A DNA stretch of 33,793 nucleotides from an uncultured Porphyromonadaceae bacterium (GTDB lineage Bacteria; Bacteroidota; Bacteroidia; Bacteroidales; Muribaculaceae): the NCBI GenBank assembly GCA_947176285.1, contig CAMWQF010000003.1, forward strand, positions 1 through 33,793, read 5' to 3'. Of the stretch, positions 5,183-25,208 are shown piece after piece; the stretch's first letter is position 1; the number at the start of each line of letters is the position of its first letter. A model generated the notes under the pieces. The model worked only from the letters and a program-made list of their open reading frames with translations, was not told where the DNA came from and searched no databases. Both the position numbers and the translations under genes were made by a program.

Positions 5183-7696
5183 TTAATAGTTGATTGTTGA
5201 ATTGATGATGACATTAGATTCTTGGAGACCAGGGGATGTCGCCCTGACCTTGATTTCACCGGTGTCTCCGTCGTTTTGCACGATTACAAGAGCGCGTCCG
5301 TAGAACGCTTTCTTGCGGTCTGACTTGAACTTTTCAAGGGAGATAGGTGAGCCGTTGTCTGTGCCGGCGTTGAAGCCGCTTCCTTCTACAGAGAAGAAAA
5401 TCTCGTTTTCAGCCAGAGGACATAAGTTGCCATCTTTGTCTACCACTTCCACCGAGACATAGCAGAGATCGGACCCGTCAGCATTGATTTCTGTACGGTC
5501 AGGGGTCAGGCGCAAAGCATATGGCTCTGACGCGGTATTGATCGACGTGCGTTTCACTTCCTTTCCATTCTTACGGCTTACGGCTTCGAGAGTTCCGGGA
5601 GTGAATGGCAATCGCCACCACACATGATATGCCTCACCTTCAGGAGTTTTTTTGCCGAGAGATTCCCCATTTAGGAAAAGTTCCACTTCATCCGCATTAT
5701 TGAAATATGCCCATACGTCCACTTCCTCACCCTCTTTCCAATTCCAGTGAGGGAAGAGATGCAGCACATCAATGTCCGGACGCCAGCGGCTCTGATACAT
5801 ATAGTAGGAATCTTTCGGATTTCCTGCGAGATCGACGAGCCCGAAATATGAACTTCTTGCAGGCCAGCCATAAGGAGTGGGTTCGCCGATATAGTCAAAT
5901 CCTGTCCATACGAATTGTCCCATTATGAAGTCATTGTCTTCCACATGGCGCATAGTCCCTTCGTGGGTGTTTCCCCATGGCGCGTGGCAGTTGTCGTAGG
6001 CAGAGCAAGAGAAGGATTCGTTGAAGAAAGGCTTGTCCCATCGTTCAGGCCATAGATTGATGCTGTCGGAAGGCATTTGATAATATCCGCGTGTTTGCAG
6101 GGCTGATACGCTTTCAGTCACAATGAACGGTTTCCCGGGAAAGTTCTTGGGAACATCCTTAAACCAGTCATCGTGATAGTTGAATCCAATTATATCAAGT
6201 GCTCTGGATCGGAAGAGGTGATTGCCTGGATTCGGCTCGTTGCATCCGGCTGTCACAGGACGCGTAGGGTCAAGTTCCCTGGTCATGTCAGCCAATTTTT
6301 TAGTAAGCAGTGAGTTGACGCTCATTTCCTCCCCTTCCTTAGCGAGCAATTCGGGGCCATGTCCGAAATTCAGTATGAGATTGGCTTGCTCAAGGCTAAG
6401 GGTGTCGGCGTTTGCATCGCTCCATTGTTCAAGCACTTCGTTTCCGATGCTCCACATGATGATGCTTGGATGGTTGCGGTCGCGCACCACGAGGTCGGTC
6501 AGGTCGCGCTCGTGCCATTCCGGAAAATAACGGGAATAATCGTGTGAGGTCTTTTTCTTTCGCCACATATCGAAAGTCTCGTCCATCACCATAAGCCCCG
6601 TCGAGTCGCAAAGTTCGAGCAGTTCGGGAGCCGGCGGATTATGAGAAGTTCGTATGGCGTTTGCCCCCATCTCTTTCATTATTCTAAGTTGGCGTGCTAT
6701 AGCGGCTTTATTGACAACGGCTCCTAATGCGCCTGCATCATGATGCAGGCATACTCCGTTGATTTTCATGCGATCGCCATTGAGCGAGAACCCCTTTTCG
6801 GCATCAAACTCCATGAAGCGGAATCCTGTCTTAGTCTCAAATCTGTCGATAATCTTGTTTTTCACCTTCACTTCATTCACTACAGTGTAAAGTGCCGGTG
6901 ATTTTACAGACCACAGTTCTGGACTGCTTACTGTTAGATTCTGTATCACCTCGCTTTCCTTACCCGGTCCGAGCAAAAGAGGTGTGGAAGCAGAGGCTAC
7001 GATGCCGTTTTCAGGAGAGTATATAGTGGTCTCAAGAGTGGCTTTGGCATTTTTATTGCCATTGTTTTCCAAGTTAGTGATAACTGAGAGTTTGGCTGCC
7101 TCTTTCGTCACTTTGTCTTGGCGAACGAAAGTGCCCCATTTCTTCACATGCACCGGATCAAGAATCCTTAGCCAGACATGGCGGTAGATGCCGCATCCGC
7201 TATACCATCTTGAGTTTGGTTGCTCTGAGTTGTCAACTTTCACTGCGATGACATTCTTTCCGGGTTTTAGCCATGGAGTAAGGTCATAGCTGAATGATGC
7301 ATAACCATAGGGCCTGGTGCCGAGTTCATGACCGTTGATGTAGACGGTGGAATTCATGTAAGCGCCATCGAAGTCGATGTATACATCTTTCCCTTTCATG
7401 GATGGGGTGAAATTGAAGGATTTGCGATACCATCCAATTCCTCCCGGAAGTGCACCACCGCCCGTTCCGGAAGGATTGTCTTTGCTGAACTCTCCTTCAA
7501 TAGCCCAATCGTGAGGCAGGTCAAGGTTTCTCCAAGAAGTGTCGTCATGCTCCGGATCGAAAGCATGAGCCGGTTTGTCTAAAGAAAACTTCCATCCTTT
7601 GTCGAAAGATATAGCCCGGTTGTCGCGGGCAGCGGTCGCGCTGCCTGCCGTCAGGAGGGCAAGCAGCGCGATTATGGTCATTTTCAATGAATTCAT
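5183..7696 (-). CDS. Glycoside hydrolase family 2 beta-galactosidase, secreted
   Basis: 837 aa; sugar-binding domain (DWAIEGEFSKDNPSGTGGGALPGGIGWYRKSF), NAIRTSHNPPAPELLELCDSTGLMVMDE, acid/base MWSIGNEVLEQW, nucleophile PFIVTESVSA. Start overlaps the GH31 stop (ATGA). Confidence 0.93.
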   Translation of the reverse strand: MNSLKMTIIALLALLTAGSATAARDNRAISFDKGWKFSLDKPAHAFDPEHDDTSWRNLDLPHDWAIEGEFSKDNPSGTGGGALPGGIGWYRKSFNFTPSMKGKDVYIDFDGAYMNSTVYINGHELGTRPYGYASFSYDLTPWLKPGKNVIAVKVDNSEQPNSRWYSGCGIYRHVWLRILDPVHVKKWGTFVRQDKVTKEAAKLSVITNLENNGNKNAKATLETTIYSPENGIVASASTPLLLGPGKESEVIQNLTVSSPELWSVKSPALYTVVNEVKVKNKIIDRFETKTGFRFMEFDAEKGFSLNGDRMKINGVCLHHDAGALGAVVNKAAIARQLRIMKEMGANAIRTSHNPPAPELLELCDSTGLMVMDETFDMWRKKKTSHDYSRYFPEWHERDLTDLVVRDRNHPSIIMWSIGNEVLEQWSDANADTLSLEQANLILNFGHGPELLAKEGEEMSVNSLLTKKLADMTRELDPTRPVTAGCNEPNPGNHLFRSRALDIIGFNYHDDWFKDVPKNFPGKPFIVTESVSALQTRGYYQMPSDSINLWPERWDKPFFNESFSCSAYDNCHAPWGNTHEGTMRHVEDNDFIMGQFVWTGFDYIGEPTPYGWPARSSYFGLVDLAGNPKDSYYMYQSRWRPDIDVLHLFPHWNWKEGEEVDVWAYFNNADEVELFLNGESLGKKTPEGEAYHVWWRLPFTPGTLEAVSRKNGKEVKRTSINTASEPYALRLTPDRTEINADGSDLCYVSVEVVDKDGNLCPLAENEIFFSVEGSGFNAGTDNGSPISLEKFKSDRKKAFYGRALVIVQNDGDTGEIKVRATSPGLQESNVIINSTINY

Positions 7697-10575
7697 ATCT
7701 TAACTTTTACTTCAGAGCCGTTGTAGTTTACTTCAAGCCCTTTTGCCTCGCGTGAATAGCCGACCGGTGTTGAAGGCGACACTTTAATGACATTGAATTT
7801 ACGCTCCTTAAGCATACCGGGGAATTCACCTTTACGGTTGCCTATAGTCAGAGTGCCTGAGGCATTGTCATAATTCATCGGTATCATTGAGTATGCACCC
7901 TTTTCATAGTTGTAGTTGAGGTTTTCGTCTTCATAGAGTGTAAACTCACCGTTGTCGCCTGTATAGACATAGAGGTTGATCACATCAGCGGGTTTTTGAT
8001 CAGAATACTGCATCTCCGGACCAAAAGGCACTATTGCTCCGGAACGAACGTAGAGCGGCAGTTTCTCGTAAGGCGCTCCTGCAACGACAGTCTCTCCTCC
8101 TTTAGATGCGACCATACCGGTATAGAAGTCATACCAAGTGGCGCCTTTGGGGAAATATATCTCGCGCTGGCGTGCTCCATACTCATAAACAGGGGCAACC
8201 AGGAATGCATTGCCAAACATATATTGGTCGCCAATATTGCGTGTGGCTGCATCAGCAGTGAATTCCATCACCATAGGGCGCATCACCGTATAGTCGTCGA
8301 AATGAGTCTTGCCGGCAAGCGAATAGATGTAAGGCATCAGGTCGTAGCGGAGGTTGGTGTAGTAGACCACCGACTTGTATGCAGGATGATCTTCAGGAGC
8401 AATATTGAAAATCTCGCGGTAGGGCCATTGTCCATGTGCGCGGAAGAGGGGCGCGAATGCTCCGAACTGATACCAGCGGGTGTTGAGTTCTCTCCATTCT
8501 TTAAGGTCGGGGTTTTCCTTTCCGGTCTTGTAGAATTCATTTTGGGCTTTCACATAGCGGTCTTCAACGCAGAATCCGCCAATGTCCATTGTCCACCAAG
8601 GAATTCCGCTCATGGCGAAGTTAAGCCCGGCTGATATCTGGGCTTTCATGTCTTCCCAGCGAGTGGCAATGTCGCCGCTCCATGTCGCGGTAGAGTAACG
8701 CTGCAGCCCGGCAAATCCGGAGCGAGTCAATAAGAATACACGCTTGTCAGGGTTAGTCTCTCGCTGACCGTTGTAGATTGCATCAGCGTTCGCAAGGGCA
8801 TAAGCATTGAAGTATTTTGTTGAAGGTCCGAGAGCAGTGGGCGTAATCAAGTCTTTGCGATACTGAAGGTCGGTACAGTCACGGATATTTGGCTCGGATG
8901 CATCCATCCACCATGCGTCGATTCCGAGAGGCACATAATGGTCGTTGATCTGGCTCCAGAAGAGTTTGCGTGCCTCCGGGTCGTATGCATCGTAGAATGA
9001 ACTGAGATAGCCGGGGCCTACCCAGTCGCGAATGCTGTCTTGAACAGGAAGCTTATACATCCATCCTTTTTCGTCAAATTCCTTATAATGGTCAGTCGTT
9101 ACATAGAATTTAGGCCATACAGAAATCATGACGCGTGCATTCATATCGTGGATTGTATCAACCATTCCCTTGGGATCCGGAAAACGTGCTCGGTCAAACT
9201 CATGACTGCCCCACGAATCTTGCTCCCAGTGAAGCCAGTCGATCACTATGTTATCAATAGGAATTCCACGACGACGGAATTCTGCCAAGGTGGAAAGAAC
9301 TTCTTCCTGAGTATTGTATTTTTCACGACTTTGCCAGTATCCCATAGCCCATTTCGGCATTATCGGGGCTTTGCCGGTCAAAGTGCGGTAGCCCGATATC
9401 ACGTCATCCATATTGTCGCCATACACGAAGTAATAGTCGATGCCGTCTTGCATCTCGCCCCACCAACTCATCTGCATCTGTTCCTTTGGGTCGCGAGGAT
9501 TGTAGGCACGCAAGCTGCAATATGCCACACCGCCATTGGGTTCCCAGTCTATCTTGATTGGCACGCGCTTGCCTGCCTCAAGTTCGACAGAGAATTTGAA
9601 ACTGTTGGGATTCCATGCCGTACGCCAATGTTCCGGCACCACTTCCTTACCGTCGATCCAGACACTCTGATAGCCGGAATAGTAGAGAATAAACTTATAT
9701 TCTCCCGTTTCGGATGCTTCAATCTCTCCTTCATATGTCACGTGGCTGCCGGCAAATTTAAAGTCGCGTGGAAGGTTGACAACATGTCCGAGGTCGCCTC
9801 TGATAAGATGCTCGAAATAGATAGAGTCTTCACGCACCACCAATGTCTCCTCATTAGGATCGGCAGGAACATAAGTGCCGGTCAAAGCCCCTTCTTTCCC
9901 ATCCTTGTCATACAACTTGAACACTCCTCCAAGCTGTTTATAGCCATCCGGATTTCCCCAACGACATAGTGAATAACTATCCCAGAGAATGCCGTAATTG
10001 TCAGTAGACACTATAAATGGTACTGAAACCTTAGTATTATATTGGTAAAGTTCTTCATTCTTCCCTTTGTAGTTGAACTCATCGCTCTGGTGCTGTCCGA
10101 GTCCATAGATGCCTTCATCATCGGAAAGCGATTCAAAAGTCTGGCGTACGGTGTAGCCTTTTGTGCCTTCCACCTCTATTGGTGAAAATTCTCTTCCTCC
10201 GTCTGCTTCAGCAAGAATCAGTTTCCCTTCTTTGTCGAAGAATTTTACATCCCCATCGCTCAGCGAAACCGTGGCGCAAATGGCGGAAGTGACTACAGAG
10301 ACAGTGGAATCAGTCTCCTTGATATCATATTCCACGTCGGATGGACGCTCAAGCACCACAAGACTTTCATCAGGAGCAAATTTCTTATCGGGAGTTGCTG
10401 TCACGCGAATGATTTTGTCTCCATACACTTGAAGGCGTACCTTCTTTACTCCGGATTCCTGATGTGAGCCGACATTCACTGTCACTCCACCGGCATCTTT
10501 TTTGTAGGCTTGGTTGCCGCATGATCCTAATAGGAAGCCGCCGACCAATAACCAGGATATTGCAGATAGTTTCAT
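7693..10575 (-). CDS. Glycoside hydrolase family 31 alpha-xylosidase-type enzyme with PA14-like insert, lipoprotein
   Basis: 960 aa; lipobox LLGSCGNQ; catalytic GIDAWWMDASEPN and TATWSGDIATRWEDMK; PA14-like insert (VTYEGEIEASETGEYKFILYYSGYQSVWIDGKEV), as in xyloglucan-active GH31 alpha-xylosidases. Confidence 0.92.
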   Translation of the reverse strand: MKLSAISWLLVGGFLLGSCGNQAYKKDAGGVTVNVGSHQESGVKKVRLQVYGDKIIRVTATPDKKFAPDESLVVLERPSDVEYDIKETDSTVSVVTSAICATVSLSDGDVKFFDKEGKLILAEADGGREFSPIEVEGTKGYTVRQTFESLSDDEGIYGLGQHQSDEFNYKGKNEELYQYNTKVSVPFIVSTDNYGILWDSYSLCRWGNPDGYKQLGGVFKLYDKDGKEGALTGTYVPADPNEETLVVREDSIYFEHLIRGDLGHVVNLPRDFKFAGSHVTYEGEIEASETGEYKFILYYSGYQSVWIDGKEVVPEHWRTAWNPNSFKFSVELEAGKRVPIKIDWEPNGGVAYCSLRAYNPRDPKEQMQMSWWGEMQDGIDYYFVYGDNMDDVISGYRTLTGKAPIMPKWAMGYWQSREKYNTQEEVLSTLAEFRRRGIPIDNIVIDWLHWEQDSWGSHEFDRARFPDPKGMVDTIHDMNARVMISVWPKFYVTTDHYKEFDEKGWMYKLPVQDSIRDWVGPGYLSSFYDAYDPEARKLFWSQINDHYVPLGIDAWWMDASEPNIRDCTDLQYRKDLITPTALGPSTKYFNAYALANADAIYNGQRETNPDKRVFLLTRSGFAGLQRYSTATWSGDIATRWEDMKAQISAGLNFAMSGIPWWTMDIGGFCVEDRYVKAQNEFYKTGKENPDLKEWRELNTRWYQFGAFAPLFRAHGQWPYREIFNIAPEDHPAYKSVVYYTNLRYDLMPYIYSLAGKTHFDDYTVMRPMVMEFTADAATRNIGDQYMFGNAFLVAPVYEYGARQREIYFPKGATWYDFYTGMVASKGGETVVAGAPYEKLPLYVRSGAIVPFGPEMQYSDQKPADVINLYVYTGDNGEFTLYEDENLNYNYEKGAYSMIPMNYDNASGTLTIGNRKGEFPGMLKERKFNVIKVSPSTPVGYSREAKGLEVNYNGSEVKVKI

Positions 10576-10600: not shown

Positions 10601-10608
10601 CAAAATTA
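10601..10608 (-). promoter_or_regulatory. Candidate -7 element (TAATTTTG on minus strand) upstream of GH31
   Basis: CAAAATTA on plus = TAATTTTG on minus, 26 nt from the GH31 ATG, in the 131-nt gap after the truncated HTCS gene. Confidence 0.45.
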
Positions 10609-10706
10609 ATAAAAAAATCCGCTGATATAGGTTATCGTGTGTATATCAATGGGAACAGTTGCTTTTTCGATAGGGTGGAATTGTTAATTCCGACGGTATG
10701 TTTTGT

Positions 10707-13700
10707 TCACTCGTCAGAAGATTGTGGTGAGTCAGAAGGTTGTTCCATACTATCTATGGGGAGTTCCACAATTAATACGACTCCGGTCTCGACATTGTCG
10801 GTCACTTTTACTGTGCCTCGGTGCATGCCGGCATATTTGCTGACTTGATTTAGTGCTATCCCGGTCTGAATCTCCAGATCCGACTTATTCTTGTCTTTGA
10901 GATGATAGAAACTATCGAATATAAATTCCTTGTCTTTGTCAGGGATTCCGTTTCCAGTATCCGACACCTTGATACGCAATGAAGAGAACACATCGCCTAT
11001 CTTCTCCACTGTAACGTTGATGCTGCCGTAGGCTGGTGTGAAGTTAAAGGCATTATTAATGAGATTATGGAGTATCTTTTCAATTATCCCCTTATCAAAT
11101 GCCATGATTATTTCCGGCATATTTGACTGGAATGTGTAGTTTACTCTTTTACGCTCAGCTGTGGAAGCAAAAGAATCATACACCCTCTTGCATACGCTCA
11201 CCACATCTCCTTCTGTCGGGTTGAAAGGCACTTCATCTTGTTTATCCCTGTCTATGTCAAGCAATAGGTTGACGTTTGAAAGCAGGTTGGTCATCTCTTC
11301 CTTAAGCAGTCTCAATCGTTTTCTTTGCTGAGGGTTGTCTGCACTCTGGATGATGCCATCAAGAGGTGGCATTATTTCTATTAGGGGAGTCCTGAAGTCA
11401 TTGCCCATCCTTTTGAAGAATTTATATTTGAGCTGATTGAGTTCATCCTCCTTTATCTTTTGGAGTCGATTTCTTTCAAATTTGGTGAATAATTTCACGG
11501 CTCCGAACACAGCCAGGGCAAACAGAAGGACATAGATGATATAAGCCCAAACAGTGCGCCAAATTGAGGGGAAAACCTTGATGGAAATCATAGCCGGTTC
11601 TAAACTTTCGTACCCATCGTTGTTGATTCCGATCACTTGCAGGGTGTAGTTGCCAGGCGAAAGGTTGGTGTAGGTCACGCTATGCTGTCCTGATGATAAT
11701 GTCCTCCATTCATCATCGTATCCTTCAAGTTTATACTTGTAGACCGTCTTATCCGGAAGAGCATAGTTATCGGTTGTAAAATATATGGTAAAGTCTTTGA
11801 CATTGTGGGGCAACTGAATTACACCTCCATCGCGAAGCGCTTCGCTGATGATCACCTTCCCTCCGATTTCTTTTGCTGGAAGTACAAGTTTATTGCTAAT
11901 ATAGAGGTCTGTAAAATTTATTCGTGGTGCTACGGAGTTGAATTGAATTTCTGTTGGGATAAAATGATTGACGCCGTAAAGTCCGCCTAACAGAATCTCT
12001 CCCGACGGGAGCTTTGCAAACGATCTTTGGTTGAAGTCACTGTCCATCAGCCCATCTTCCATGTCATAATGACGTTTCGAAATATCTATATTTCCGGTTT
12101 CGTCAGCATAACTTATGTTAAGGCTGGTGAGTACCCTCCCTTCACTCACCCAGATTGTGCCATTGTTGTCTTCGATGAGTCCTGTGATATAGTTCTTGGT
12201 CTTGCCATCATACGTGGCTACCTCCATCATTTTGTCATGTTCTCGGTCGATTAATTTGAGTCCCTGTGATGTAGCCGCCCAAAGCAGTCCTCTTGAGTCC
12301 TCAAACAATTGGGATATTTTCCAAGAAGAAGTGTCAAAATCCTTATTTAGGCTTTTAATGTCGTGGATGCGGTTGTCAGTGGGATTAAAGAAGTCAATTC
12401 CTCCGGAATGTCCAAAATAAACGTTGCCATCTTTTGATTTTAAAGCACTGGTCAGATAGTCTGATCTTAATTCGCTGTTGGAAGTGTTGAATTCTTTGAT
12501 CTCTCCTGTGGCAGGATTGTAATGAAACACGCCTCTGCCAAGGCTTGCAACCCATATTCCTCCTTCTCCGTCGTGAGCAACTGACCAAGCGTAGCAGATA
12601 TCCAGGTTTGAGCCGGTGTTGACATTTTCAAACTTACCATTGCGTACTCTCCTGAGTCCGCGCTGGAAAGCACCTACATATAGGGTGCCGTCATTGGTCG
12701 TAGCCAAACTGGTGATTGCTCCGGGTGTGTCGCCATCTGCAGGATCCGGTATGGAATATTTTTCTCCGGTGGAAGTGTTCCATTTCCATAAGCCGGAACT
12801 GTCAGTACCTACCCATACCCATGGGCCCTCAGCAGGAGTCATGCAGTTTACGTCAGGGAGTTTTTCGAGTGAAAATTTGTGTATGCAATTATTGTCTGTG
12901 AACAATCCCTTTTTATAAGAACCTAAAAATGTGGTGCCTGCGTTATCTTTGAGAATGTAGGTGAGAGTATTTTTGTAAGTGATATCGTCAGGGTGGTCGG
13001 CGGTGATGAATTGGATTTGGTCTCCGTTGAATGCTATTTGTTCCAAGCCATGGTTGTCTCTGACTATCCAAAGGATACCATTGTCATCTTGATATATATG
13101 TTTAACGTTGACGTGCCTATCACGTTGAGGAATCTTATTGGATATCCATTTCCCTTCTTTCCCGTCGTAGACCTCAATAAGCCTTGGGGAAAATACCCAA
13201 TAGCGATTATTGTTGTCAATAGTCAACATATAGTTCTCTTTGATTTTGGGTCCGTTTGTGTCATCGGGTGCCACATGAGATATCGTCGTCAGTGAGTGGG
13301 GGTCTATCCATGTCAATGCCCCGCTTTCATCTACGATTACAGGAGAACCGAATTTATTGAAATTGATGTTGCTTATGCTAAATCCTTCCGGAGGGATAAA
13401 ATCAGCCTTTTGAGCATGACCGATGCCGTTAGGAATTTTATAAAGTCCGTCATTTGCCATTGCTATCCAGATGGATCCATCCTTGTCTGATTGGATATCG
13501 TTGACCAGTCCGGTAGGAATACCCGCATCTGTCAGCAATTGATCGGTGTCAGCAAAAATTTTAAGAGTGGCAGGATCGTAAATTCCAAAACTTTGACCTT
13601 CGGTCTTTACCCATAGCCTTCCTTGGGAATCTTCACATATTTTTTGGACATATCCATTGAGAAATGTTGCTGAATCAGGAAATTCCGTTCTTGCAGGAAT

Positions 13701-13910
13701 TATTGAATAGCCGTCGAATCTGCATACCCCTGTTGCAGTACCTACCCATATCATTCCATTGTGGTCCCGGTGTAATGTGGTGATCAAATGGTTGTATGAA
13801 CCGGGTATGGCTTCAAAATGGTATCGCGTTGACGCTGCCTTCACCGTCACCGGAGAAAGAAAAGTCAGGGCAAAGAATGTAAATGAGATTATGTTTTTTC
13901 TTAGATTCAT
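10707..13910 (-). CDS. Truncated HTCS-like protein: periplasmic Reg_prop/Y_Y_Y sensor, TM, degenerate HisKA and HATPase-like region; no receiver or AraC domain
   Basis: 1067 aa. Y_Y_Y region (FTIYFTTDNYALPDKTVYKYKLEGYDDEWRTLSSGQHSVTYTNLSPGNYTLQV), TM (VWAYIIYVLLFALAVFGAVKLF), degenerate H box KFFKRMGNDFRTPL, N box NLINNAFNFTP, G1 DTGNGIP; ends MEQPSDSPQSSDE. Confidence 0.92.
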   Translation of the reverse strand: MNLRKNIISFTFFALTFLSPVTVKAASTRYHFEAIPGSYNHLITTLHRDHNGMIWVGTATGVCRFDGYSIIPARTEFPDSATFLNGYVQKICEDSQGRLWVKTEGQSFGIYDPATLKIFADTDQLLTDAGIPTGLVNDIQSDKDGSIWIAMANDGLYKIPNGIGHAQKADFIPPEGFSISNINFNKFGSPVIVDESGALTWIDPHSLTTISHVAPDDTNGPKIKENYMLTIDNNNRYWVFSPRLIEVYDGKEGKWISNKIPQRDRHVNVKHIYQDDNGILWIVRDNHGLEQIAFNGDQIQFITADHPDDITYKNTLTYILKDNAGTTFLGSYKKGLFTDNNCIHKFSLEKLPDVNCMTPAEGPWVWVGTDSSGLWKWNTSTGEKYSIPDPADGDTPGAITSLATTNDGTLYVGAFQRGLRRVRNGKFENVNTGSNLDICYAWSVAHDGEGGIWVASLGRGVFHYNPATGEIKEFNTSNSELRSDYLTSALKSKDGNVYFGHSGGIDFFNPTDNRIHDIKSLNKDFDTSSWKISQLFEDSRGLLWAATSQGLKLIDREHDKMMEVATYDGKTKNYITGLIEDNNGTIWVSEGRVLTSLNISYADETGNIDISKRHYDMEDGLMDSDFNQRSFAKLPSGEILLGGLYGVNHFIPTEIQFNSVAPRINFTDLYISNKLVLPAKEIGGKVIISEALRDGGVIQLPHNVKDFTIYFTTDNYALPDKTVYKYKLEGYDDEWRTLSSGQHSVTYTNLSPGNYTLQVIGINNDGYESLEPAMISIKVFPSIWRTVWAYIIYVLLFALAVFGAVKLFTKFERNRLQKIKEDELNQLKYKFFKRMGNDFRTPLIEIMPPLDGIIQSADNPQQRKRLRLLKEEMTNLLSNVNLLLDIDRDKQDEVPFNPTEGDVVSVCKRVYDSFASTAERKRVNYTFQSNMPEIIMAFDKGIIEKILHNLINNAFNFTPAYGSINVTVEKIGDVFSSLRIKVSDTGNGIPDKDKEFIFDSFYHLKDKNKSDLEIQTGIALNQVSKYAGMHRGTVKVTDNVETGVVLIVELPIDSMEQPSDSPQSSDE

Positions 13911-13946: not shown

Positions 13947-15530
13947 CTATTCGTTGAGAAATTGGATTCGGTGTAAGGTACACAATGATTTGCCACTCGG
14001 AGTGTTGAATACCAGATATAGCGGATGCTTCCCTTTAAGGGTAGCCACGCCCGAAACATCTGCCTTGATTCTCAACGGTTTGATCGGATCGGAGTCCTTT
14101 ATCACGAAATTACCTACGGGAGAGGGATTCCCTTTCCATGGAGCCTCGGTGAATACTGTGATAGTCCCTTCCACACCTTCCGGAATCAAGTCGAGGGCAA
14201 GTTCCACCTTCTCGGATCCATTCAGTTTGTCAAAGTTAAAGTATTTGTAGCCAACGATGCTTCCGTCAGTGTTGTTCACTACCGGGTTGATATTGAGGTC
14301 GGGATGATAGGGTTGGCTGATGTTATGATCGTCATAATACACCGGCAAGAAGTGCGATCCGCTGTAGTGAAGGCGGGGGTAGGTCTGATATGCGCCGTCT
14401 TTGCCCGTGAAATGTGAGGCAATTGCAGCAGGATATAGTTTGAGCGGATCAAGACCGTCGGTCTCAAAACCTTCGGAAGTGTATTCAGCCTCGCTAATTG
14501 TCACCTTTCCACCTTTCCCTTTCTCAATCGTCACATCTATTGGCGCCACCATCGCTTGGCGTGAGTATTCATCAGTGCCGCACTGACGGTGATAGAACAC
14601 CCACCATTGGTCGCCGATTTTTAGTATTGATCCATGAGTGTTGCCGTTTGGAGTGGCAGTATAGATTGTGTTTCCGTCAGCATCAGTGTCGCGTCCGCGT
14701 CCATCGATGATTGTGCCTCCGAAAGTCCAAGGTCCGAGCGGGTTGTCGCTGTATGCGTAAGCAAGGGTGAAATTTGACTGTGGAAGTCCCCATTCCCCAT
14801 CTTTTGTCATACGTGAATAGATAAGGACATATTTATCGTCGATTTTGCGGATTGAAGATGCCTCGAAAAATCTGAATTTGTTGTCATCGCCATCCTCAAA
14901 ACCACCGATCATCCTTTCTATAGGCTGGGTGCTGGGCTTTACAGTTGCCATGGTATTCGGGTCAAGTTCAGCCCCATAGCTTGTTCCGAAACCCCAATAT
15001 CCATATACCCTTCCGTCGTCATCAACGAATACAGCGGGGTCAAATCTCAACACGCCATCGCAAACATCGAGGTTGCTGCTGTCCCAGTTGATCACTTCAA
15101 ACGGTCCGTCGGGACGCTTTGACACGGCGGCTTGGCCGTTTCTGCCCCCACGTTGGTTGTTGGGGTAGAGGTAGTATTCCTTAGATCCATCGGGAAGTGT
15201 CTTGACTGCAATGTCAGGTGCGAATAGCACGTCTGCCGGTTGAGGATTGCCGTTTCCATCTTTGTCACTCTTGAATATGATGCCGTCATACCTCCAGTTG
15301 TTGAGCGAGTCAGGGTCTGCCGACCATACTACGAGGTCTGTTCCGCAATACATTGTGCGGAGCATGTCATGGCTGCCATAGATATACACTCTTTGCTTGC
15401 CCGGATTGTCCGGGTCATCCAAAAGATAAGGCTCCCCATCCGGAATATGCTCCCAAAGAGGCAGGTAAGGATTCATCGACCAGGCTCCCAGAGACACCAT
15501 CACCATTACTCCCAAAACAATCTTTTTCAT
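13947..15530 (-). CDS. Glycoside hydrolase family 43 enzyme (probable alpha-L-arabinofuranosidase or beta-xylosidase) with C-terminal CBM6-like domain, secreted
   Basis: 527 aa with signal peptide; NPYLPLWEHIPDGEPYLLDDPDNPGKQRVYIYGSHD, VLFAPDIAVKTL, RFFEASSIRKIDDKYVLIYSR, GNTHGSILKIGDQWWVFYHR are five-bladed GH43 motifs; beta-rich C-terminus. Confidence 0.88.
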   Translation of the reverse strand: MKKIVLGVMVMVSLGAWSMNPYLPLWEHIPDGEPYLLDDPDNPGKQRVYIYGSHDMLRTMYCGTDLVVWSADPDSLNNWRYDGIIFKSDKDGNGNPQPADVLFAPDIAVKTLPDGSKEYYLYPNNQRGGRNGQAAVSKRPDGPFEVINWDSSNLDVCDGVLRFDPAVFVDDDGRVYGYWGFGTSYGAELDPNTMATVKPSTQPIERMIGGFEDGDDNKFRFFEASSIRKIDDKYVLIYSRMTKDGEWGLPQSNFTLAYAYSDNPLGPWTFGGTIIDGRGRDTDADGNTIYTATPNGNTHGSILKIGDQWWVFYHRQCGTDEYSRQAMVAPIDVTIEKGKGGKVTISEAEYTSEGFETDGLDPLKLYPAAIASHFTGKDGAYQTYPRLHYSGSHFLPVYYDDHNISQPYHPDLNINPVVNNTDGSIVGYKYFNFDKLNGSEKVELALDLIPEGVEGTITVFTEAPWKGNPSPVGNFVIKDSDPIKPLRIKADVSGVATLKGKHPLYLVFNTPSGKSLCTLHRIQFLNE

Positions 15531-15803: not shown

Positions 15804-18800
15804 ATGACTACTTACGAAAGGCACCTTATGATGAGGAGATTTTTATGGGTTGTAGTAGCAATTATGATGATTATTCCCTCCGTTTGTGCACAAACGGAAA
15901 AACTCGTTTTGCGCCATGTGAGCCAAGCCAAAGGATTGCCCAATAATCATATCACTGAACTTTTCAAAGACTCAAGAGGGTTTCTGTGGATTGGCTCTTC
16001 TGCAGGTCTGCTCCGGTATGATGGATATTCTACCCGGCGTGTCTCAGATATGGTGGGAAAGAACACCGGTGTGCTTAATGAGCAAATCATCAGGGTGCAA
16101 GAGGATAAGAAAGGAAGATTGTGGGTGGAAAGTGAATCCTCTATTGCTATATTTGATCCTATGACGAATACTCTCATTGATTGGGTGTCGGACTATGTGA
16201 AACAGTTTGGAATCCAAGGATATGTGACTGCTGTATTGGCAGATGAGCATGGGGATATCTGGATTGCTATAGACCGGGATGGACTGTATCGCATCGACAT
16301 AAAGAATGAAACAGCACAAAAAACTTCAGGCTTAGACCTGGATAAAGAGACGATCAACAGTCTGGCACTATCAAAAGGAAAAATGATTGGAATCACTAAG
16401 TCAGGATCTCTTATAGCGACAGACCCGGACTCAATGAAAACGACTATCATTTCGAAAATTCCTGAGAACGTCAATGTAGAATCTGCTCATTCCCTGCTTT
16501 ATACTGACCAAGATAACCGAGTATGGATTGCCTACAACGACCGTCTGATGCTTTACGATCTTGCAAAAAAAGAGTGGCAGAATGAACTTCTTCCGTTGCA
16601 TGGTGGAATTGGCGTTGTAAAAGATATCTATAATGACTCAAAAGGGAATTTATGGATAGCTCGGGATCATCATGGCATTGAAAAGATGGATTTTGTCGAC
16701 GGAGTATACAGGTTGTCGCCGATGCCGACCGTCGGGGATATATTCCCTCAATCTACCATAACATCAATCCTTGAAGATGAAAACGGGACTCTGTTGTTTG
16801 GCACTTACAAACTTGGTCTTTATTCCTACAACGAGAGTGTAAATAAATTCCGCATAGATACTTTCCCTAATCTTGACAAGATGCCGGATGTGAATTGCAT
16901 GATCACTTCTCCTGACGGCACTGTATGGATAGGCACAGACAATTCCGGACTGTGGAAATGGAATCCATCAAGCGGCGAATACAGTCACATTCCCGATCAA
17001 ACTGAAGATAGTCCTCATGCTATCACATGCCTTGCGCATTCATCGGATGGAAACGTCTTTATCGGCAAATTTTCAAGAGGGCTTTTCTGCCTTGACAATG
17101 GGAAAGTGGTATCACTCCACACGGGAAGCGACATAGACAAGGCATATGTTTGGAGCATCGCATTTGACAAAAACGGCAATTTGTGGATCGGAACTCTCGG
17201 GAATGGTGTGTTCAGATATAATCTTAATAATAAAAGCGTAGAGCAATATACTACTCTTAATTCCAAAATGAGAAGTGATTATGTCACTTCAATATTGCCT
17301 GGAAAAGATGGAAATATCTATATCGGCACTTCGGGGGGCGCTGAGTATATTAATCCTAATACCCGCAAATTGACATCTGTAAGTATTGACGATGATTCCT
17401 CACTCAACGGGAGCAAGATAGTGCAGATTTTTGAAGATTCCCGTGGTTTGCTTTGGATTGCGACTACTTCCGGACTTAAGGTGGTAGATGCCAAGACAGG
17501 GAAAGTCATGAGTGTGCATAACGCTCCATATGGAGCCGATATGGTGGGTATAGCCGAAGACAACGAAGGGGGTATCTGGGTCAGCAACAGTTCAAGACTT
17601 GCCAACCTGAAAGTTACGTATAATAGAGACACCGGAAAGATAGATTTGGCAAAAAGAGAATATGATAAATATGCCGGATTGCCGGAAAGTGATTTCAACC
17701 AGCGCTCATTCGTGAAAATGGCAGACGGCTCTCTTGCAGTAGGCTCTCCATTTGGCATTATTCATTTCAATCCCAAAGATATCCGGATGAATGCTAATCG
17801 TCCAAAGGTATTGTTTACGGATCTTTATATGGACAATAAGCCGGTGGAAGTTGGAGAAAAAATAGGAGGCAGGATTGCTCTCAATAAGGCAATTTTCTCA
17901 GGAGAAAGAATTGATCTAAACCATAATCCTAAGGAATTTACCATATTTTTTACATCTGATAACTATGCATTGCCGGAGAAAACCCGGTTTAAATACAAAC
18001 TTGATGGATATTCCGAACAATGGACAGAATGCCCGGAAGGAATCAACTATGTGACATATACCAACCTTTCCCCCGGGAATTATCAACTTCAAGTTGTGGC
18101 AATTAACGAGGATGGATATGAAAGTGAGGCACCTGCTACTCTCGACATAAAAATACATAATTCTTTCTGGGGCTCTCCATGGGGCTGGCTGATTTATGCG
18201 GTGATTACTGCTGTATTAATATGGATCATAATCCGGATTGCGCAAAGGCGCGAACGTCATCTATTGGAGCAAGAAAGCCAAAAGGAAGCCCAACGAAAGC
18301 AGGAAGAACTCAACCAACTCAAATTCAAATTTTTTACAAATGTAAGCCATGACCTAAGGACTCCGTTGACCCTTATTGTATCCCCACTTGAAGATATGAT
18401 TAAGGAGTCAAAAGATGAAAGGCAAACTAAACGACTTAGTCAGATGCGAAATAATGCGATGCGTCTGCTTTCGCTTGTCAACCAACTGCTTGACTTCCGA
18501 AAATCAGAGGAGGCAAGACTGAATCTAAATCCCTCGGAAGGTGACATAGTGGCTTTTGCTCGCAATGTATGCACTTCGTTTCTCGGATTGTCAGAAAGAA
18601 AGAATATCAATCTCACTTTTTATTCCGACTCCGACCGTATTCGTCTGCTATTTGACGAAGACAAGATGGAGAAGATTTTAATGAATCTACTAGGGAACGC
18701 ATTTAAGTTTACGCCTGCAGGCGGAAGAATAGATGTGGCTATCCAGCATGGCGGCGATGACCGGTCGGCTCTTCGCATTCAAATTTCTGACACAGGCATA

Positions 18801-19886
18801 GGAATAAAAGACAAAGATAAGAAGCATATCTTTGAACGCTTCTATCAAGTGGATGATGATGGGGTGTCACATCCCGGCACAGGGAGTGGCATCGGACTAA
18901 GTATGGTGAGCGAATATGTGAAACTTCACGATGGAACGATCAGGGTGACTGATAACATCGAAAAGGGGAGCGTATTCATTATTGAGTTGCCTATAAAGCA
19001 TTGTGATGCAATCAAGGCTGTAAATATCGCTCAAGATGCTATTGGCTGTGGAGATAGCGAGCATATGCAAAACAAAGATGCAGTTGAAAATCGCCCTGAT
19101 GTTCAGGGGAATCGTAAGACTGTGCTTGTAGTGGACGACAGCTCTGATATGACTGAAATGCTGAAAGATAGCCTTGACAATATCTACAGTGTTATCACTG
19201 CATCTGATGGCATGGATGCCTTAAAGAAAATCTCTGAGACAAAGCCGGATATTATCCTTACCGATCTTATGATGCCAAACCTTAACGGTATGGAACTCTG
19301 CCGCAAACTGAAAGAAAATCCTGAGACTGTCAATATCCCGATAATCATCCTCACGGCAAAACATGACCTTGGCGTGAAACTGGAAGGGCTGACCATTGGT
19401 GCTGACGATTATATCACGAAGCCTTTCAATCTAGATGTGCTTAGACTCAGAATGCGCCGCCTGATAGAACTTAATTCCAAAGGGGCGCGTCGCAGTCTGA
19501 TAGAGCCGGAGCCGGAGAATATTAAGATTACTCCGCTTGATGAACAGTTGATTGAGAAAGCGATGAAATACGTGTCAAAAAACATAAGTAAATCTGAACT
19601 TTCTGTAGAGGAATTGAGTGATGTGCTTGGTATGAGCAGGGTGAGCCTATACAAGAAAATCAAGCAGATCACCGGGAAAAGTCCGATAGAATTCATCCGT
19701 ATCATACGGCTGAAGCGTGCTGCACAGCTTTTGCGCGAGAGTCAGCTTAATGTCTCTGAAATTGCTTATCAGACCGGCTTCAACAATCCCAAAGTATTCA
19801 GCCGCTATTTCAAGGAAGAATTCGGGATTCTTCCTTCGGCTTACCAGAACCAAGAGTCTACTGAGACAAGTATTAAGTTACACTGA
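15804..19886 (+). CDS. Full-length hybrid two-component system regulator (HTCS)
   Basis: 1360 aa: Reg_prop repeats, Y_Y_Y domain, TM, HisKA NVSHDLRTPL, HATPase (NLLGNAFKFTP, DTGIGIKD, GTGSGIGLS), receiver (VLVVDDSS, ILTDLMMP, ITKPF), AraC HTH (LSVEELSDVLGMSRVSLYKKIKQITGKSPIEFIRIIRLKRAAQLL). Start may be M at 15828/15831, before the signal peptide. Confidence 0.97.
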   Translation: MTTYERHLMMRRFLWVVVAIMMIIPSVCAQTEKLVLRHVSQAKGLPNNHITELFKDSRGFLWIGSSAGLLRYDGYSTRRVSDMVGKNTGVLNEQIIRVQEDKKGRLWVESESSIAIFDPMTNTLIDWVSDYVKQFGIQGYVTAVLADEHGDIWIAIDRDGLYRIDIKNETAQKTSGLDLDKETINSLALSKGKMIGITKSGSLIATDPDSMKTTIISKIPENVNVESAHSLLYTDQDNRVWIAYNDRLMLYDLAKKEWQNELLPLHGGIGVVKDIYNDSKGNLWIARDHHGIEKMDFVDGVYRLSPMPTVGDIFPQSTITSILEDENGTLLFGTYKLGLYSYNESVNKFRIDTFPNLDKMPDVNCMITSPDGTVWIGTDNSGLWKWNPSSGEYSHIPDQTEDSPHAITCLAHSSDGNVFIGKFSRGLFCLDNGKVVSLHTGSDIDKAYVWSIAFDKNGNLWIGTLGNGVFRYNLNNKSVEQYTTLNSKMRSDYVTSILPGKDGNIYIGTSGGAEYINPNTRKLTSVSIDDDSSLNGSKIVQIFEDSRGLLWIATTSGLKVVDAKTGKVMSVHNAPYGADMVGIAEDNEGGIWVSNSSRLANLKVTYNRDTGKIDLAKREYDKYAGLPESDFNQRSFVKMADGSLAVGSPFGIIHFNPKDIRMNANRPKVLFTDLYMDNKPVEVGEKIGGRIALNKAIFSGERIDLNHNPKEFTIFFTSDNYALPEKTRFKYKLDGYSEQWTECPEGINYVTYTNLSPGNYQLQVVAINEDGYESEAPATLDIKIHNSFWGSPWGWLIYAVITAVLIWIIIRIAQRRERHLLEQESQKEAQRKQEELNQLKFKFFTNVSHDLRTPLTLIVSPLEDMIKESKDERQTKRLSQMRNNAMRLLSLVNQLLDFRKSEEARLNLNPSEGDIVAFARNVCTSFLGLSERKNINLTFYSDSDRIRLLFDEDKMEKILMNLLGNAFKFTPAGGRIDVAIQHGGDDRSALRIQISDTGIGIKDKDKKHIFERFYQVDDDGVSHPGTGSGIGLSMVSEYVKLHDGTIRVTDNIEKGSVFIIELPIKHCDAIKAVNIAQDAIGCGDSEHMQNKDAVENRPDVQGNRKTVLVVDDSSDMTEMLKDSLDNIYSVITASDGMDALKKISETKPDIILTDLMMPNLNGMELCRKLKENPETVNIPIIILTAKHDLGVKLEGLTIGADDYITKPFNLDVLRLRMRRLIELNSKGARRSLIEPEPENIKITPLDEQLIEKAMKYVSKNISKSELSVEELSDVLGMSRVSLYKKIKQITGKSPIEFIRIIRLKRAAQLLRESQLNVSEIAYQTGFNNPKVFSRYFKEEFGILPSAYQNQESTETSIKLH

Positions 19887-19930: not shown

Positions 19931-20025
19931 ATTACGCATGATTTTATTAACAAATTCCAACTGAGCATTTAACATTTCTTACCCTCAAATTATTATCTAA
20001 GCAACAAAAGATTACGTAAAATTTA
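19931..20025 (+). promoter_or_regulatory. Candidate operator: two direct copies of ATTACGyAwrATTT upstream of susC
   Basis: ATTACGCATGATTTT from 19931 and ATTACGTAAAATTTA from 20011, 80 bp apart; the downstream copy lies about 33 bp upstream of the predicted susC -7 element. Confidence 0.25.
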
Positions 20026-20137: not shown

Positions 20138-23100
20138 ATGAAAATCAATGACTTGTGCAAGGCAAGGTTCTTGCGTATGGCGGTCGTGATTTGCTGTTTG
20201 CTTGGAGGCATCGGTTTTGCTAATGCGCAAGACATGGGGGTCAAGGGCACAGTGACATCAGCCGCTGATGGTGAGCCGCTTGTTGGCGTCACCGTCATGG
20301 TGAAAAACTCAAGTGTCGGTACTGCTACCGATTTAGATGGCAACTACAGCATCGAGGTGCAGAAAGGTGCAACCCTCGTTTTCTCGTATGTCGGCATGCA
20401 GCAGAGAGAAGTGAAAGTTGATGCTACTCGTATGGACGTGGCTCTACTTGACGATAGCAGCACACTCAACGACCTCGTGGTGATCGGTTATGGCGTGCAG
20501 AAGAAGAAACTTCTCACAGGTGCCACAGCCCAGATTTCCGGTGCGGACATAGCAAAGATGAACACCAACTCTCCCCTTCAGGCAATGCAGGGCCAGATGC
20601 CGGGTGTCAATATCAGTACAAACTCAGGTCAGCCGGGCGAAAGCATGAAAGTGCGCATACGTGGTCTCGGCACTATCGGCAATGCCAATCCTCTTTATCT
20701 AATCGATGGAGTAGGTGGCGATATCTCCACTTTGAATCCTGCTGATATCGAAAGCATCGATGTGCTTAAGGATGCTGCATCTGCAGCAATCTATGGTGCT
20801 CAGGCTGCTAATGGTGTTGTGCTTGTCACTACCAAAAAAGGTAAGGAAGGAAAGGCAAAGATTACATTCGACGGATATTACGGTATCCAAAACGTAGCCC
20901 ACAAGGTGCAGATGCTTAATGCACAACAGTATATGACCATCATGGATGAGCAGCAACTTGCAGAAAATTCAAATCCGTATGATTGGGACAATATTTCTTC
21001 AATCTGGCAGACAGACGCAGAAGGCAACCGCATAGGTGTATATGACACTGACTGGGTAGGACAGATGTTTAAGAAAAATGCAGCAACTCAAAGTTATACA
21101 ATAGGGATCACCGGAGGTAACGCCACAAGCACTTATGCAATGAGCCTTGGCTATCTCAATCAGGAAGGTATCGGCGGTGGCAGTAAGGTATCTGACTATT
21201 CTCGTTATAATTTCCGTATTAATTCGGACCATAAGTTCTTCGGCGGAATTGTCACTATCGGTGAGCAGGCAAATTTTGTATATAAGAAAAGCAACGGTAT
21301 AGGTGTAGGTAATATCTGGAACAATACGCTTACTGCCGCTTTCAGGACATCTCCTCTTTCTCCGGTCTATAATAAGGATGGAGATTTCAACGACACGACT
21401 CATAGCGACTGGTATGATGCTGACGGCAACCCTTATGGTAAGATGATGCTCACAAATATAAATTCCAATAAGGGGGCAACCTTCACCGGAAATGTATATG
21501 CACAGATTGAGCCGATAAAGAATCTTAAACTCCGTACTGTTTTCGGTGCAGTCGCCAACAGTTCTGAATATCGCTCGTTTACTCCGATTTATCAGCTCGA
21601 TATATATAGTATGTCAACTCATACTTCTGTTATGCAGAATATGAATAGAGGGCTTGGCATGACATGGACCAATACCATTTCATACGATTTCAATATAAAA
21701 GACCATTCCTTCAATGCACTTCTGGGTATGGAATCATATCGTTATGAAGGAACGTATCTCGAAGGTAAGCAGGGATATTTGAAGGAAGGATTTGATACAT
21801 GGCCCTATGCTTGGGTAACCAACGGCACTGCAGCAACTACCGCTGATGGTCTTAGTGCAGCAGGAAAACCGCACGATGTGAACCGATCTGTAAGTTATTT
21901 CGGACGTTTGGGTTGGAACTGGCAGGAAAAATATATGGTTGACTTCACCTTGCGTTGCGATGGTTCTTCAAGATTTGCAAGAGGTCACCGTTATGGTTGG
22001 TTTCCATCTATTTCTGCCGGCTGGAACATCACAAGTGAAAATTTCATGGAGGCTTCAAGAGGTTGGCTTGATTTCTTGAAAATACGTGCCAGCTGGGGTC
22101 AGGTAGGTAACCAGAATATCGATCCATATATGTATCTGGCTCCTATCAAAGTCACCAATACACATTACTTCTTTGGTGAATATCTTGGTCCAAACGGAAC
22201 CTACAATGACTACGCATCAAGCCTTGCCACCAATTGGGGTGCCTATCCCAACCGTCTTGGAAATGCCGACCTGACATGGGAAACTTCTGAACAGGTGAAT
22301 GTTGGTTTTGATGCTGCTATGCTGAGCAGCAGACTGCACGTTAACTTTGACTGGTATCGGAAGACTACAAAAGATTGGCTTGTGCAGCCACCGATTCTGG
22401 CTACTTCCGGAGCGGGTGCACCCTATATCAACGGTGGTGACGTAGTAAACAGCGGTGTCGAACTTAATCTGACATGGAATGATGTGATTGGTAAGGATTT
22501 CGCTTATAATGTAGGAGTGAACTTTACCTATAATCAAAATAAAGTGGGCGCAATTCCAACTGAAGACGGAATCATACACGGAGAATCAAATGTGATATTC
22601 CCCAATGCGCCGGAATTCTATCGTGCTGAGAATGGACATGCCATCGGCTACTGGTGGGGCTTCCAGACAGCGGGCATTTTCCAGAACCAGCAGGAAATCG
22701 ATGAGTGGATAGCAGCCGGAAACGGTGTTTACCAGTCGAATGTGCGCCCCGGAGATGTGAAATATGTGGATCAAGACCACGATGGTGTGATCAATGACAA
22801 TGATAAGGTAGACCTTGGCAATGGTGTGCCAAAGTTCACTTATGGCTTAAACATCAATCTTTATTGGAAGAACTTTGACCTTGGCATTGTAGGCATGGGT
22901 GTGGCAGGAAACAAGATTTTCCAAAGCTATCGCGACTGGACTAATCAGAGATCGAACTACACTACAGAAGTGCTCCAACGCTGGACAGGAGAAGGAACCT
23001 CAAATCGTATTCCTCGAGTGACAAATACCCAAGTGAATGCAGCAGTTTCAGATCTCTTTCTCCACAATGGCGATTTCTTCCGCATCAGCAACCTTACTTT

Positions 23101-23308
23101 AGGTTATGACTTTGCGCCTCTGATGAAGCAGAAGTGGTGTAGCCAAGCCCGCCTGTATGTACAGGTGCAGAACCTCGCTACATTTACAAAATATAACGGT
23201 ATGGATCCGGAGATCGGTTATGGTACTTCAGGCTGGGTGAGCGGTGTTGACCTTGGCTTCTATCCGACTCCACGCACAGTACTCTTTGGAGTAAATCTCG
23301 GTTTCTAA
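20138..23308 (+). CDS. susC: SusC-like TonB-dependent outer-membrane transporter
   Basis: 1056 aa; signal peptide, CarboxypepD_reg-like domain (GVKGTVTSAADGEPLVGVTVMVKNSSVGTATDLDGNYSIEV), TonB box/plug (LNDLVVIGYGVQKKKLLTGA, PLYLIDGVGGDISTLNPADIESIDVLKDAASAAIYGAQAANGVVLVTTKKG). Confidence 0.97.
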   Translation: MKINDLCKARFLRMAVVICCLLGGIGFANAQDMGVKGTVTSAADGEPLVGVTVMVKNSSVGTATDLDGNYSIEVQKGATLVFSYVGMQQREVKVDATRMDVALLDDSSTLNDLVVIGYGVQKKKLLTGATAQISGADIAKMNTNSPLQAMQGQMPGVNISTNSGQPGESMKVRIRGLGTIGNANPLYLIDGVGGDISTLNPADIESIDVLKDAASAAIYGAQAANGVVLVTTKKGKEGKAKITFDGYYGIQNVAHKVQMLNAQQYMTIMDEQQLAENSNPYDWDNISSIWQTDAEGNRIGVYDTDWVGQMFKKNAATQSYTIGITGGNATSTYAMSLGYLNQEGIGGGSKVSDYSRYNFRINSDHKFFGGIVTIGEQANFVYKKSNGIGVGNIWNNTLTAAFRTSPLSPVYNKDGDFNDTTHSDWYDADGNPYGKMMLTNINSNKGATFTGNVYAQIEPIKNLKLRTVFGAVANSSEYRSFTPIYQLDIYSMSTHTSVMQNMNRGLGMTWTNTISYDFNIKDHSFNALLGMESYRYEGTYLEGKQGYLKEGFDTWPYAWVTNGTAATTADGLSAAGKPHDVNRSVSYFGRLGWNWQEKYMVDFTLRCDGSSRFARGHRYGWFPSISAGWNITSENFMEASRGWLDFLKIRASWGQVGNQNIDPYMYLAPIKVTNTHYFFGEYLGPNGTYNDYASSLATNWGAYPNRLGNADLTWETSEQVNVGFDAAMLSSRLHVNFDWYRKTTKDWLVQPPILATSGAGAPYINGGDVVNSGVELNLTWNDVIGKDFAYNVGVNFTYNQNKVGAIPTEDGIIHGESNVIFPNAPEFYRAENGHAIGYWWGFQTAGIFQNQQEIDEWIAAGNGVYQSNVRPGDVKYVDQDHDGVINDNDKVDLGNGVPKFTYGLNINLYWKNFDLGIVGMGVAGNKIFQSYRDWTNQRSNYTTEVLQRWTGEGTSNRIPRVTNTQVNAAVSDLFLHNGDFFRISNLTLGYDFAPLMKQKWCSQARLYVQVQNLATFTKYNGMDPEIGYGTSGWVSGVDLGFYPTPRTVLFGVNLGF

Positions 23309-23395
23309 AAATGCATAATTCATAATGCACAATTATTATTTGCAAATGATGTTATGCTTAAATTTGATAAAGTTACTACGAAATAATCCAAAACA

Positions 23396-25057: not shown

Positions 25058-25208
25058 TAAACAGTTAATTTTAGTGATAAAAAGTTAAAGTATTGATACT
25101 TTGAAGATTTAGATAATTTTGAATGCTTTTTTGCGTTAATGAATTACATCATTGGGATGCTCCTTGCTCCACATTATTATAAGATCTTCGAATAATGCCA
25201 ATCTAAAT

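Follow-up and report, generated by a model that had tools for sequence, protein, structure and literature searches.

The locus studied here raises the question of whether an HTCS-like gene without any output, lying beside an intact paralogue, is a dead gene or encodes a protein that is retained for another job. In the usual description an HTCS is a complete circuit within a single protein. In the analysed window, the whole stretch of 33,793 nucleotides, the gene in question (10707..13910, minus strand; pseudo-HTCS, pHTCS) is accompanied by an intact paralogous HTCS (15804..19886, plus strand) of 1360 aa with His849, HisKA, REC and AraC, which is likely the acting regulator. Both belong to a PUL containing GH31, GH2, GH3, GH43, SusC, SusD, a 650-aa ORF and BACON-GH5. 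This gene set fits known xyloglucan loci (PMC4967831), and a substrate of this type is presumed here. The GH31 gene (7693..10575, minus strand, assigned by Pfam) is the first of a GH31-GH2-GH3 operon, and SusC and SusD are encoded at 20138..25057 (plus strand). The 650-aa ORF after SusD (25152-27104) has no Pfam or NCBIfam match and may by its position encode a surface glycan-binding protein. GH43 (13947..15530, minus strand) lies upstream of pHTCS and is probably cotranscribed with it, as only 36 bp separate the two genes.

The reading frame of pHTCS is open throughout its 1067 codons. The protein consists of a signal peptide, two beta-propellers, Y_Y_Y, a transmembrane helix and degenerate DHp and CA regions. 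Pfam matched Reg_prop, Y_Y_Y and HATPase_c, but HisKA, Response_reg and HTH gave no match in pHTCS and are all present in the neighbour. The two proteins are 42% identical over 1036 aa, which excludes chance as the source of the HTCS resemblance. The periplasmic sensor (11571..13820, minus strand; residues about 31-780) has a BT4663-like fold, BT4663 being its best match among solved structures, and it is followed by the transmembrane helix (11487..11552, minus strand; residues about 787-808), found in the sequence and as a helix in the structure model. The model is confident for the sensor (about 90) and the CA core (80-88) and poor for DHp (50-66).

The kinase part, also on the minus strand, is damaged at several places. 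In the alignment the signalling helix lacks seven residues, one heptad, between residues 817 and 818 (11459..11460), a detail that an earlier sequence-only reading of this DNA had missed. The degenerate DHp/HisKA region (11232..11471; residues 814-893) is the fastest-evolving part of the protein. At the phosphoacceptor position the codon AAT (11400..11402) encodes Asn837, where the neighbour has His849 (codon 18348-18350); in the alignment with 25 homologues this column holds His in all 25 of them and Asn in pHTCS only. Of the CA/HATPase region (10752..11231) the core is kept (HATPase_c, 4.7e-15), as are the G1 box DTGNGIP (10941..10961) and, except for a change of K to N, the N box NLINNAFNFTP (11034..11066). 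However, the G2 box/ATP lid (10851..10877) is ruined and reads LEIQTGIAL compared to GTGSGIGLS; the lid is disordered in the model, with no confident structure at 1005-1016, and the F-box Arg is missing. Neither the protein nor the 131-bp spacer between it and the GH31 ATG (10575) contains a receiver or an AraC-type HTH. The sequence-only reading had reported the open frame, both phosphoacceptor codons, the three boxes and the missing REC/AraC, and all of these were confirmed by codon reading, Pfam and coordinates.

Thus, pHTCS retains the double-propeller and Y_Y_Y sensor with its transmembrane helix, whereas three features that define an HTCS are lost: a HisKA with a phosphoacceptor His, a HATPase with intact N, G1 and G2 boxes, and a receiver with AraC-type HTH. 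It is therefore not an HTCS by function. By descent it is one, as it is nested in the HTCS clade and is the positional counterpart of the HTCS genes of its relatives. With a kinase fold and predicted loss of catalysis it qualifies as a pseudo-histidine kinase which, judged by its residues and domains, has no capacity for phosphorelay or DNA binding alone. This supports the earlier claim that the protein derives from an HTCS and lacks both activities.

To trace the origin of the gene, 111 genomes of the genus were searched, and relatives at E <= 1e-150 were found in 15 other genomes. Those examined are mostly encoded immediately upstream of GH31, with lengths of about 1350-1380 aa. The nearest relatives at the equivalent locus belong to other species, are 52-54% identical and are full-length, therefore pHTCS descends from a full-length HTCS by truncation, and its paralogue nearby is intact. 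A contig scan for close relatives yielded distant or partial matches only, and thus no close orthologue for a direct dN/dS comparison. In G071 the PUL has the order GH2-GH31-HTCS(-)-SusC(+)-SusD-SGBP-GH5-PD40, and that of G087 is nearly identical. Both carry one full-length HTCS, with no GH43 or second HTCS at the locus, indicating that the window carries an additional HTCS and a GH43 between the old HTCS and susC. The intact HTCS of the window is 73-76% identical to HTCSs in G064 and G078. In G065 and G085, GH43 (90% identical) abuts GH31 (91-92% identical) with no HTCS in between, so that some lineages can do without this gene. The locus is thus in flux. In the same two genomes (L070/L071; G085, G065) BACON-GH5 is reduced to its N-terminal part, a PUL under dismantling. 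The HTCS counterparts L040 (G022) and L044 (G059) are split by frame breaks that fall in the linker or the CA region; the ambiguous bases close to them point to assembly errors, although the genes may really be split.

An assembly error was also considered for pHTCS itself, since the source genome is fragmented (423 contigs, 81% complete). However, a sequencing or assembly artefact or a chimeric gene is extremely improbable. The frame stays open over all 1067 codons, the hundreds of kinase substitutions are scattered without any junction, which an error at this place leaves unexplained, and the downstream operator and promoter are intact. In addition, the CA region is closest to G067, which is also the nearest relative of the sensor. 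As the kinase part is closest to the clade to which the sensor is also closest, it decayed in place and is not a swapped module.

The sequence behind the pHTCS stop codon carries a direct-repeat operator with a 22-bp period, TGAACAAAACATACC...TTAACAATTCCACCC (10672..10709, minus strand), upstream of the GH31 operon, whose first half-site starts on the stop codon itself. It is followed by the Bacteroidetes-type -7 box of this operon, TAATTTTG (10601..10608, minus strand). A second operator of the same period stands upstream of susC (19947..19984, plus strand) and has the best score in the window. The scores are 27.1 for susC and 17.4 for GH31, compared to a maximum of 15.8 in shuffles, and only these two dimers in the window exceed this null. 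Direct-repeat operators have been described for HTCSs of B. thetaiotaomicron (PMC3878776). In the relatives the 22-bp-period repeat, with the consensus half-site TTAACATTTnnnnCCC, precedes both susC and GH31, and in most of them the copy at GH31 extends over the final codons of the HTCS gene. It stands free in G067 and G064, where a GH5 gene separates HTCS from GH31. Therefore the stretch behind the stop represents an operator that has been retained, more than a fossil; its interpretation as the fossil 3' end of the HTCS gene was dropped because of the repeat and the free-standing sites. Truncation, as proposed from the sequence before, holds, but a simple deletion has to be refined, as the endpoint coincides with the operator that the GH31 operon has kept. 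In its AraC domain the intact HTCS shares 80-91% identity with the relatives, and this protein plausibly reads both predicted operators. As the susC/GH31 operator is shared across the genus, it could define an HTCS regulon. In the window scan against the shuffled null no operator was found before GH43/pHTCS.

To compare the constraint on sensor and kinase, branch lengths were estimated per region on a protein tree of 13 HTCSs with fixed topology. As the exact gene is known from one genome, the constraint is inferred along one long branch. For the sensor the pHTCS branch is 0.384 (5.6% of tree length), compared to 0.406 for the sister stem, a ratio of 0.95. For the kinase it is 1.151 (35% of tree length) compared to 0.107, a ratio of 10.8, and on the same tree it makes up 61% of the tree length in DHp. 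Separate branch lengths for sensor and kinase improve the fit by 270.8 with pHTCS and by 109.1 once it is removed, and the statistic stays at 260-266 on removal of any of three other sequences. Of the residues invariant in the other HTCSs, pHTCS kept 102/107 in the sensor, 23/45 in DHp and 44/62 in CA, compared to 96-100% of the DHp residues in intact HTCSs. A codon model, in which branch lengths are saturated (t at bound for the sensor) and omegas are only qualitative, pointed in the same direction. The sensor has an omega as in the background and rejects omega=1 (LRT 22.8), DHp is relaxed (LRT 21.6) and indistinguishable from neutral (LRT against omega 1 = 2.1), and CA again rejects omega=1 (LRT 8.4), the synonymous sites being saturated.

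These values bear on the explanation that pHTCS is a decaying pseudogene, truncated after the second HTCS had taken over and with its remaining frame open by chance. The full-length state of all relatives, a DHp indistinguishable from neutral and the absence of the HTCS gene in G065/G085 would fit. However, a pseudogene should have lost constraint over the whole gene, and here the sensor evolved at the rate of the sister lineage and kept its invariant residues while the kinase ran about 11x faster, gaining about one extra replacement per site. Moreover, a neutral excess of this size, with 240 replacements, should have brought about 11 stops into the kinase region, and none is seen. Whole-gene decay is therefore unlikely, and the claim that pHTCS is more than a dead gene agrees with a sensor that kept its constraint and a kinase that lost it. 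The sequence-only reading had also allowed for a deletion in a single strain among full-length relatives. The full-length relatives exist, but the depth of the kinase divergence indicates an old loss and no one-strain deletion.

A second sensor-only His-to-Asn case occurs in G077 (L123:9127-16154, G077:C26). There, an intact HTCS (L123:9127-13326) comes first; 113 bp downstream lies a sensor-only HTCS of 904 aa (L123:13440-16154), and a GH43/BNR_4 enzyme is encoded next. The sensors of the two HTCSs align without gaps and share 57% identity. In the pseudo copy Asn replaces the phosphoacceptor His (IGNELHTPL); CA, REC and AraC are missing, and the signalling helix is wrecked. Its branch takes 7.6% of tree length in the sensor, 45% in DHp and 66% in the helix, and 91/96 invariant residues are kept in the sensor compared to 13/32 in DHp. 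It is absent from the matching PUL of G079 (SusC 95%, SusD 98%), which has the intact HTCS alone. The G077 case indicates that sensor-only His-to-Asn HTCSs arose independently in two PULs of different type within one genus, and it suggests that such copies are kept for a function, probably the tuning of the intact neighbour. The pseudo copy has a separate -7 box upstream; given this, and as no operator precedes GH43/pHTCS, a feedback of the intact HTCS onto pHTCS is unsupported.

We are confident about the evolutionary part of the explanation: pHTCS is a former HTCS that lost kinase and output while its sensor was maintained. For its present role, the best reading, held tentatively and at nearly even chances, is that of a membrane-anchored sensor-only pseudo-kinase with a periplasmic function that tunes PUL induction. 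The xyloglucan-type PUL would formerly have been under the control of a full-length HTCS. A second one (15804-19886), whose AraC domain is very similar, would now serve the same operators, and this takeover would have freed the resident copy to lose REC, AraC and phosphorelay chemistry, with the membrane-anchored sensor being retained. The retained job, we infer, would be periplasmic, either binding of PUL oligosaccharides or pairing with the intact HTCS via propellers and Y_Y_Y, or both. Competition for ligand or non-signalling mixed dimers could then raise the threshold at which the PUL is induced. The sequence-only reading had offered a decoy, a mixed dimer, a sink or a scaffold as candidate roles. 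A productive mixed DHp four-helix bundle is disfavoured by the heptad deletion and the rapid evolution of DHp, so that pairing, if any, should be periplasmic; the destroyed signalling helix of the G077 pseudo copy likewise speaks against a cytoplasmic mixed dimer. That pHTCS tunes the intact HTCS at all may be true, but we put this slightly below the reading as a whole.

Alternatively, the sensor could be a tethered periplasmic oligosaccharide binder, acting as a buffer or handing ligand over to GH31/GH43, that does not touch the intact HTCS. The confinement of constraint to the sensor, the probable transcription together with GH43 and the existence of PorZ, which has this fold and is known to lack a kinase (PMC5121618; Foldseek rank 16), are in line with such a role. 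However, the G077 copy, too, has an intact HTCS paralogue at its side, an arrangement that suggests a link to the regulator, and pHTCS kept its transmembrane helix and CA core; we regard mere ligand holding as rather improbable. The opposite possibility, that pHTCS remains active, its CA core binding nucleotide and working on the intact HTCS, for example by phosphorylating it in trans or by assisting a phosphatase, could draw on the remaining N and G1 boxes, the confidently modelled core and the rejection of neutrality in CA. With the G2 box/ATP lid ruined, the F-box Arg lost, DHp diverged and the G077 copy entirely without CA, such an activity is very unlikely. A periplasmic, non-signalling tuner is the preferred reading. 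Whether sensor-only pseudo-HTCSs are a recurrent, convergent device of Bacteroidota PULs, setting the ligand threshold of an intact neighbour via periplasmic pairing or competition, is more speculative, and we consider this a possibility on the doubtful side.

Other reduced HTCSs were found as well. A pattern search in 399 genomes of the family gave five matches with a non-His H box, two of them (G008, G378) in proteins with HTCS-type domains and three without an HTCS-domain match. The first, L146:6739-8478 (G008:C121), is a sensor-less HTCS of 579 aa with His changed to Asp (FFTSVSDDLRTPL), a degenerate G2 box and REC and AraC present; it lies downstream of a 734-aa ORF and is the mirror image of the pseudo-HTCS. 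The second, L147:2638-5559 (G378:C311), has all HTCS domains, His changed to Asn (FFINISNEFRTPL) and an apparently lost receiver Asp (VSGYDLP). It would be phosphorelay-dead with AraC retained; a frame break splits the gene, and the contig ends within it. HTCSs without CA that kept AraC occur in two species (L125:9485-13042, G075:C43; L126:10016-13576, G005:C81), with the receiver phosphoacceptor Asp seemingly replaced (VSGVMM), and L124:6690-10328 (G107:C18) has kinase and AraC without a receiver domain. The AGR-arginine variant was found in pHTCS alone in a search limited to the genus. In another genus, short Y_Y_Y proteins from 21 genomes were examined; these are mostly sensor-AraC forms, plus split or contig-cut HTCSs, and no sensor-only HTCS is among them.

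No description of sensor-only HTCSs was found in the literature searched, although such an absence is no proof. If the tuning role is true, induction thresholds of PULs could be set by a second, non-signalling protein, as by pseudokinases elsewhere. pHTCS would also be a clean natural separation of sensing from signalling, in which the constraint on both halves can be compared within one gene.

With Bacteroides HTCSs such as BT4663, pHTCS shares the sensor fold, the domain order up to HATPase and the location beside susC/susD and glycosidases, but it differs by the replaced phosphoacceptor His, the lost ATP lid and the missing REC and AraC. Dead histidine kinases that modulate partners are Caulobacter DivL and Pseudomonas RetS (PMC12189002) and an evolved ChrS variant of Corynebacterium (PMC9491836). 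Like pHTCS these are kinase-derived, have no phosphorelay of their own and share the cell with an active paralogous kinase. However, their partners are demonstrated, whereas that of pHTCS is a candidate and its retained constraint is on the periplasmic sensor and not on DHp. The type IX secretion protein PorZ (PMC5121618) also has an HTCS-sensor-like double propeller and no kinase or DNA-binding part, but it is a monomer that carries a CTD and reaches the surface by secretion, whereas pHTCS has a transmembrane helix, a kinase remnant and a gene in a PUL. Finally, many propeller/Y_Y_Y-TM-AraC proteins of the family (L085, L086, L092, L121, L149-L152 and others) form a common class without kinase, that is, membrane one-component regulators; PDB titles call BT4673 a 'putative one component system'. 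They resemble pHTCS in having an HTCS-type sensor without phosphorelay, but they kept the AraC output and pHTCS has none.
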